Under the pieces are notes generated by a model. That model saw only the letters and a program-made list of their open reading frames with translations. It searched no databases and had not been told where the DNA came from. Both the position numbers and the translations under genes were made by a program. Positions 41,394 through 42,791 of a DNA stretch of 42,964 bases are shown one piece after another. The stretch is from an uncultured Flavobacteriales bacterium (GTDB lineage: Bacteria > Bacteroidota > Bacteroidia > Flavobacteriales_D > Parvicellaceae): positions 1-42,964 of the forward strand of contig CAJQPO010000076.1 of NCBI GenBank assembly GCA_905480225.1, in the 5' to 3' direction. Every line of letters begins with the position of its first letter. Within the stretch, counting starts at the first letter, position 1.

Positions 41394-41792
41394 TCAATTC
41401 ACTTTGAATTTCACTAATGCTTTTCCAGAAAGTACCATTTTATTTGATTCGGACTCAGTGATAGAAGTACGTAGCTGTATTTTGTCTTCATTAATATCAA
41501 GAATCTCAACTTCAGCCTTATACGTAACGTCAATAAATACAGGTCTAAGAAATTTTAGTTCTTGAGAGATGTATATTGAGCCAGGCCCTGGAAGTTTCGT
41601 ACCTATAAGCTTTGAAATAATACTTGAGCTGAGCATTCCATGCACGATTGGTTTTCCGAAAATTGTTGTAGATGCGTACGCTGCATCATAATGAATCGGA
41701 TTTGAGTCTCCAGTAACAGCTATAAAAGTATCTACATCCTTTTGACTAAATGAAAAATTTTCATAACACTTAGTACCTTCTGTTAATTTCAT
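41394..41792 (-). CDS. MaoC-family (R)-hydratase/dehydratase
   Basis: The ATG at 41792 (MKLTEGTKCYENFSFS) gives 132 residues, the usual size. An in-frame ATG at 41915 would add 41 unrelated basic residues and is unlikely. The hydratase motif TFIAVTGDSNPIHYDAAYA carries the catalytic Asp29 and His34, followed by FGKPIVHGMLSSS. It hydrates trans-2-enoyl-CoA (or a related enoyl thioester). The context gives no single pathway; fadH, accC and a thioesterase elsewhere in the window are also lipid genes. Confidence 0.88.
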   Translation of the reverse strand: MKLTEGTKCYENFSFSQKDVDTFIAVTGDSNPIHYDAAYASTTIFGKPIVHGMLSSSIISKLIGTKLPGPGSIYISQELKFLRPVFIDVTYKAEVEILDINEDKIQLRTSITESESNKMVLSGKALVKFKVN

Positions 41793-42098
41793 GAATTTCT
41801 TTTTTATATGTGGCAACGATTGAACAAAACTATATTTTAAAAGGTGTTTAGAATTTGCAAGGTATAGTTTGTACTCTCTAATTCTATCAATCAGATTGAT
41901 TTTTTTGCATCGCATCCAATTATTTTATTTTTTTCATAATAACTTATAAGCACATTTGGATATTGTACAGCCTTGTTTCAAGGTAATTACGTTAACCATT
42001 TATTTCAAGCACTATAATCTTGAATATTCAGATTCAACAATTAAAAACTTTCAAGTTCTACTCCTTTATTTTCTGAATTAAATTATCAAAGAATCTTT
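41793..42098. other. 306-base region between maoC and the deacetylase pseudogene
   Basis: No convincing gene or RNA. It contains the unlikely 41-codon upstream extension of the maoC frame and AT-rich DNA with no clear promoter match. Confidence 0.55.
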
Positions 42099-42791
42099 TT
42101 ATTCCGGGGGTACCTGTATTATATGCTCTTTGAGGTTTTCATATTGTTGAAAATAAGATCTGGCTTTATTGTATCGAGATAAATCTTCTGTGTTGAGAAA
42201 AAGGTGAATTGGATGGAAATCAAAAACTTTTAATCCGGGAAAATTCAAATAATAATTTATATCTGGATTGTCCTTGTACGACAGGTGAATATCGTCTTCC
42301 CAGAAATGCGGAATTCTCGTTAAACCTACTTACCAACTTTTTATTGGCTTCAATTCAATGTTCGCATTACGGGGGATGAATGTATTAAGATCAAATTCAA
42401 TGTTCCGTGATTCAAAACAATTTAATATTTGACTTCCTTGAATCAAAGAATGTGATCTCGCCGAAGTTGCTCCTGGAACCATTTTAAGGTAGAAATCAAT
42501 AACTTCTATGAAAGTTCTACCGTACCTGAAATCACCATTTAAAAGAAAATTAAAGTTAGGATAGATTCCTAATTCAATGTTTTTATTCTCCTTCATTCTA
42601 TTGAGGACAGGACTTTCATGCGCCACGAAAAATGTGGCAGAGAGGTTATCTTTTTCAACAATATCTAAGCAAAATTCGACACTTCATCAGATGCCCAATC
42701 GATATCAAATGTTAGAAAAATATTTTCATCAAAGATTACACTGGATTACACTGGAATTATGCAAGTTTTGAACCTTTAATGTCTGCTTCAT
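42099..42791 (-). pseudogene. degenerate polysaccharide-deacetylase-like (WbmS-type) gene
   Basis: Reading across three breaks gives a ~230-residue protein. It opens MKQTLKVQNLHN, then FLTFDIDWASDEV (catalytic-type Asp), ATFFVAHESP, ELGIYPNF, SARSHSL, TRIPHFWEDD and LKVFDFHPIHLFLN, the landmarks of WbmS-type polysaccharide deacetylases. The breaks are: a 10-base tandem duplication ATTACACTGG at 42735-42754 (frameshift to stop); loss of one base near 42680 (frameshift); and an in-frame TAA at 42330-42332, after which the same frame stays open to 42099. LGIHPNF of the family is LGIYPNF here, so a metal-ligand His is also lost. Neither frameshift is explained by a single error. Confidence 0.82.
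42735..42754 (-). repeat. 10-bp perfect tandem duplication inside the pseudogene
   Basis: ATTACACTGG occurs twice in direct succession (plus strand). Removing one copy rejoins the reading frame from the ATG at 42791 to the FDIDW motif. Confidence 0.85.

Follow-up and report, generated by a model that had tools for sequence, protein, structure and literature searches.

Is the frame-broken wbmS-like gene at the right-hand end of this contig a dead gene, or was it broken by the assembly, switched off reversibly or trimmed to a shorter product? The window analysed here is the entire contig of 42,964 bases, from a draft genome of 2.76 Mb (129 contigs, 96.2% complete, 0.07% contaminated), and the gene lies on its minus strand. 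Our preferred reading, to which we give a probability of roughly 0.86, is that the gene died recently and is probably a recent pseudogene of a known family. Since relatives with open frames are present in many bacteria, the decay looks like the ordinary case of a gene that is no longer needed.

Identity and lesions of the wbmS-like gene

Both main-frame pieces of the gene matched PF22537 (WbmS-like; Pfam), with E values of 1.7e-33 (42680-42333) and 4.2e-17 (42329-42100). Their bit scores (116.6 and 63.2) were above the curated cut-off of 27 bits, and the gene scored 191.5 bits when it was read through one stop. The closest solved structure was 3hft_A, Bordetella WbmS, which the first main-frame piece (P0001) matched at E 2.9e-23. 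The two lines of evidence uphold the WbmS identity given in the original prediction. Motif 1 of PF22537, D-x-D-W, was also present, in a frame that differs from the remainder of the gene. Rfam and tRNA scans of the whole window returned no match.

We observed that the pseudogene occupies 42058..42791 on the minus strand, from an ATG at 42791 to the original stop codon at 42060-42058. In minus-strand translation the ATG precedes a 10-bp tandem duplication (42734..42755, three possible registers), which is the first frame break after the start. This pair is the sole exact period-10 tandem among the 42,964 bases (0.1 positions expected per window, 30 first-order Markov simulations). It is followed by a piece in its own frame that holds the motif-1 sequence IFLTFDIDWASDEV (42681..42733, minus strand, lower border approximate). 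The FDIDWASDEV motif is in a different frame from the main part, which marks a frame change near 42680. The main frame opens with P0001 (42333..42680, minus strand; PF22537 positions 14-126), in which the motif-2 His is replaced by Tyr and an invariant Thr by Ala. It is interrupted by a TAA stop codon (42330..42332, minus strand) and continues as P0002 (42100..42329, minus strand; PF22537 positions 130-186), where homology stops near 42120. The duplication, the frame change and the stop codon had all been claimed before and were all present; that count was incomplete, as it missed a fourth lesion, a further frame change somewhere inside 42105..42124 (minus strand). Beyond it a C-terminal helix piece continues in a third frame (42061..42120, minus strand). 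This helix can still be read beyond the fourth lesion near 42120, which puts the end of the gene at 42058, ~40 bp further than the end at 42099 proposed earlier.

The closest relative found was L053, the wbmS of Flavobacteriales bacterium DT_38 (JABSPQ010000205.1; 60% identity over 206 aligned residues). Unlike the window gene, it has an open frame and the motif-2 His, and a formyltransferase gene follows with a 4-bp overlap. Comparison of L053 with the window by tblastn gave three main pieces in three frames (residues 30-57, 48-234 and 235-254). At window position 42120 the main-frame match stopped with residue 234, and the alignment picked up in the following frame at residue 235. The last piece was weak alone (E 0.01 with L053, 0.002 with L072); it was detected with five of seven tblastn queries and was absent with L055 and L057. 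Against a profile of the relatives' C-terminus, whose columns were derived from aligning this same window piece, the peptide 42120-42061 scored 22.3, a value reached by none of 20,000 shuffles (highest 22.0, mean -25.3, sd 8.8). It ranked first among the 30,191 stop-free 20-mers of the window (runner-up 9.7). In the predicted model of L053, the stretch after the fourth lesion is the terminal helix. Taking a pseudogene as a gene with at least two independent disabling lesions relative to an open relative, we count four against L053.

Changed residues and broken relatives

An alignment query of genome contigs gave 100 matches, 80 of which were kept as relatives; a scan of genome contigs with P0001 alone gave 78 pattern matches and no relative. 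No wbmS match was found in the phage collection, and the plasmid search matched three records, all Lawsonia, at 33%. The motif-2 residue (G-I-H-P-N-F) is His in 80 of 80 relatives, which came from a scan pattern permitting only H or Y there, and Tyr in the window gene. A Pfam-model search free of that limit gave 11 close homologues, all of which have His; at least five of them are on contigs that the set of 80 also includes, and the remote matches L005 and L009 were not counted. The Lawsonia homologue and 3hft likewise have His. The His-to-Tyr change reported earlier is therefore real. A second column holds Thr in 79 of 79 relatives and Ala in the window gene.

As a control, we counted relatives that depart at two or more of the 95% columns. 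Seven of the 80 did so, and one of the 20 nearest; the seven include two broken copies, L100 and L105. These counts cover the conserved columns outside the window's motif-1 piece, and the motif-1 columns were judged by eye and with tblastn.

In the NodB fold, motif-2 histidines bind metal and come after a conserved GHEVG strand, according to the accessible text of PMC10967932. The window Tyr comes after an ELG strand, the counterpart of the GHEVG strand, and for that reason the changed His would, by the rule of the fold, be a metal ligand. The window gene, its motif-2 His changed to Tyr, is thus a broken member of PF22537 by descent and not a working enzyme.

Broken copies recur in the family. 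A frame change or stop relative to the best query was seen in 10 of the 80 relatives, and at least eight of these breaks are clear (L072, L073, L083, L085, L087, L088, L100 and L105). Those in L098 and L115 are doubtful because they fall at the very end or start. L072 (7878-7994), L100, L105 and L085 lack a long G tract, and their reading frames are interrupted by in-frame stops or by a frame change; they are possibly independent decayed wbmS copies.

The wbmS homologues of the Helicobacter group (L073, L075, L076, L083, L087, L088, L090 and L093) have an internal run of 8-13 G. The frame is open across the run in L075, L076, L090 and L093, and changes at a run of 10-13 G in L073, L083, L087 and L088. 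A G-tract deacetylase gene is already published for H. canadensis: HCAN_0153 is described in the available part of that report as a phase-variable polysaccharide deacetylase gene that is frame-shifted, contains a G12 tract and neighbours a gene for a sialyltransferase (PMC2823697). It has a G12 tract where the window gene has none, and is likened to it by description, not by PF22537 membership.

By analogy with these relatives, the window gene could be a phase-variable gene in its off state. Relatives elsewhere do have G8-G13 runs with frames open or broken, and the tandem duplication could in principle revert. We regard this as highly improbable. The four breaks are unlike one another, one of them being a stop codon, and no G run of eight or more is visible within 42058-42791, so no single slip opens the frame. 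In a phase-variable gene the length of one hypermutable tract sets the frame, whereas the window gene is broken by four unlike lesions.

Assembly, age and genomic setting

The position of the gene raises a different concern, that assembly or sequencing errors at the contig end broke an intact gene. It lies within 0.91 kb of the end of a contig in a 129-contig draft, the contig stops 173 bp past it, where assemblies fail more often, and its pieces still resemble constrained coding sequence. We nevertheless consider such errors unlikely. They would have to account for at least four lesions of unlike types and for changes at two invariant residues, with the lesions ~210 to 850 bp from the contig end and an open MaoC-like gene only 142 bp away. 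Such a shortage of open frame is also not seen at left contig ends in this genome: no stop-free stretch in the window's last 865 bases exceeds 351 nt, and each of the 39 usable left ends had a longer one, in a control that concerned open frame only and took the left ends of 40 of the 129 contigs, one of which was all N and was dropped. Two of 93 internal windows were as short in open frame. The terminal 173 bp had no strong match in the rest of the genome (best other E 0.2); thus no repeat was seen at the contig break.

That part of the gene still yields a useful shorter protein is, in our judgement, scarcely credible. An open frame of 98 codons, beginning with GTG, does remain at 42626-42330, but it spans only profile positions 32-126 of 186, does not include motif 1 and encodes Tyr where the motif-2 His should stand.

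We next consider when the pseudogene arose. The main pieces keep a coding signature in their codon-position GC (0.41/0.28/0.31). Between the window gene and L053, pN was 0.245 and pS 0.788, with pS near saturation; pairs among L053, L054 and L055 gave pN of 0.29-0.31 and pS of 0.77-0.83, also near saturation. A quick tree placed the window gene as sister to L053 (SH-aLRT 89; end branches 0.41 and 0.30, respectively). Set against the divergence from L053, the gene appears to have been lost recently. Relaxed selection, as proposed in the original prediction, is still the best reading of the decay, but the rates do not show it: 16 changes were specific to the window gene and 9 to L053, so that the relative rate was not significantly raised (P = 0.23).

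The original prediction also placed the gene beside a surface-gene region, which is only loosely true. The window holds SprB repeats and type-IX secretion tails, the mark of a Bacteroidota genome, and the neighbours seen are the MaoC-like gene and type-IX-secreted proteins; its sugar genes are ~24 kb away. A suggested search for an intact paralogue elsewhere in the genome was carried out, and no second wbmS copy was found in the 96.2% complete draft.

The open MaoC-like gene next to the broken wbmS (41394-41915) had only 25-28% matches in 11 related genomes. MaoC-like relatives near wbmS were observed twice, one of 46% ~4.7 kb away in L115 and one of 28% on the L060 contig. We dropped MaoC as a linked pathway gene, as two contigs among 80 loci is about the chance level by estimate rather than computation.

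In the same genus, genome G002 is collinear with the window from 25.5 kb to ~38.58 kb, with proteins 84-96% identical, and then departs; in G001, the anchor gene was matched only weakly. On this comparison the last 4.4 kb, with the MaoC-like gene and the broken wbmS, is a variable tail. Beyond the end of collinearity (window ~38583; L183 12035), a pseudouridine synthase gene and an ORF with no Pfam match follow in G002. PF22537 itself is patchy: with the window's own genome included, it was present in one of three genomes of the genus, 2 of 39 of the family and 6 of 399 from the order. In the phylum sample, again with that genome included, 15 of 392 genomes had it at E 0.001, seven of them above the curated cut-off.

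The formyltransferase partner and the role of the family

At the loci of L053 and L054, a formyltransferase gene follows wbmS directly, its start sharing 4 bp with the wbmS stop. With the formyltransferases of these two loci as queries, we found a homologue just downstream of wbmS at 20 of the 80 loci and close upstream at 20 of 80. It flanked wbmS on either side at 32 loci and lay anywhere in the locus at 43. No match was seen at 34 loci, including the third-closest relative, L055, and three were too short downstream; the 80 loci are not all independent, as some share one genome. This pairing is undescribed in the literature searched, a search that left most subscription journals outside its reach. 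Predicted formyltransferase genes in one Bordetella wbm locus are noted in a figure legend (PMC12243275, text available in part).

No sugar formyltransferase was found in the window's genome (PF00551 search of the 96% complete draft). Two PF00551 genes were present: NCBIfam identifies one as Fmt (267 bits against a cut-off of 201.5); for the second, PurN is the best match, at 129.5 bits and thus under its cut-off (150.1). Beside the broken wbmS, no formyltransferase remnant rose above chance. The missing partner fits a loss of need for wbmS and is no proof of it.

These observations suggest a course of events for the pseudogene. This Bacteroidota lineage once had a WbmS-type gene, of a patchy family, for a NodB-fold sugar N-deacylase. 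Because no sugar formyltransferase partner was found, the step probably lost its use, which would have lifted the constraint. The gene gathered its four or more reading-frame lesions and the changes at two invariant positions, and a functional product is probably no longer made.

The fold was assessed on the open relative L053 only, with an alignment-based predicted model (pLDDT 93.8). The model matched 3HFT best (Z 32.6, rmsd 1.8, 236 residues, 37% identity), followed by the putative deacetylases 3QBU and 3RXZ, the PuuE allantoinase and ArnD (Z 14.2-15.5). GH57 enzymes, which have a related barrel, scored Z 11-13. In matching 3HFT and many CE4 deacetylases, the L053 model has the NodB-type barrel of CE4-like deacetylases. 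A shared fold shows no function.

PDB 3HFT is WbmS (BB0128) of Bordetella bronchiseptica and belongs to the same family as the window gene. Its title presents it as the structure of a protein encoded by a Bordetella O-antigen gene. The copy in the window, by contrast, is broken, and on the contig side we saw no O-antigen cluster next to it. In ovine Bordetella parapertussis Bpp5, O-antigen was lost by frameshifts in wbmO and wbmI, a decay of the same kind of pathway through other genes; wbmS is not named as broken in the accessible text (PMC12243275).

ArnD, a sugar deformylase, acts after a formyltransferase. ArnD (PDB 8T0J) has a NodB-type barrel like that of the L053 model, of which it was the second Foldseek match (Z 14.2, rmsd 3.2, 181 residues, 13% identity). 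Other deacetylases and an allantoinase scored as high (Z 14.6-15.5), so no special kinship with ArnD is shown. In the part of PMC10967932 available, ArnD is called a deformylase in a reference title, and 3HFT is called uncharacterised.

As a tentative proposal, which we think has less than an even chance of being right, WbmS-type enzymes may work in an N-formyl pathway rather than as plain deacetylases. They could form an ArnA/ArnD-like pair with the formyltransferase, in which a formyl group would be put on and later removed by the WbmS-type enzyme. Alternatively, they could take part in a swap, in which acetyl would be exchanged for formyl on an amino sugar. Both versions fit the pairing at 32 of the 80 loci and the shared NodB fold.

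As a pseudogene the window wbmS is ordinary: it documents that a single surface-sugar step was lost in one lineage of Bacteroidota. Across other lineages, the frame of WbmS-family genes has been switched or broken repeatedly. If the N-formyl proposal were true, the death of the window gene would follow from the loss of its formyl partner. For a family that is structurally solved and uncharacterised, the pairing with a formyltransferase suggests a substrate and a simple assay.
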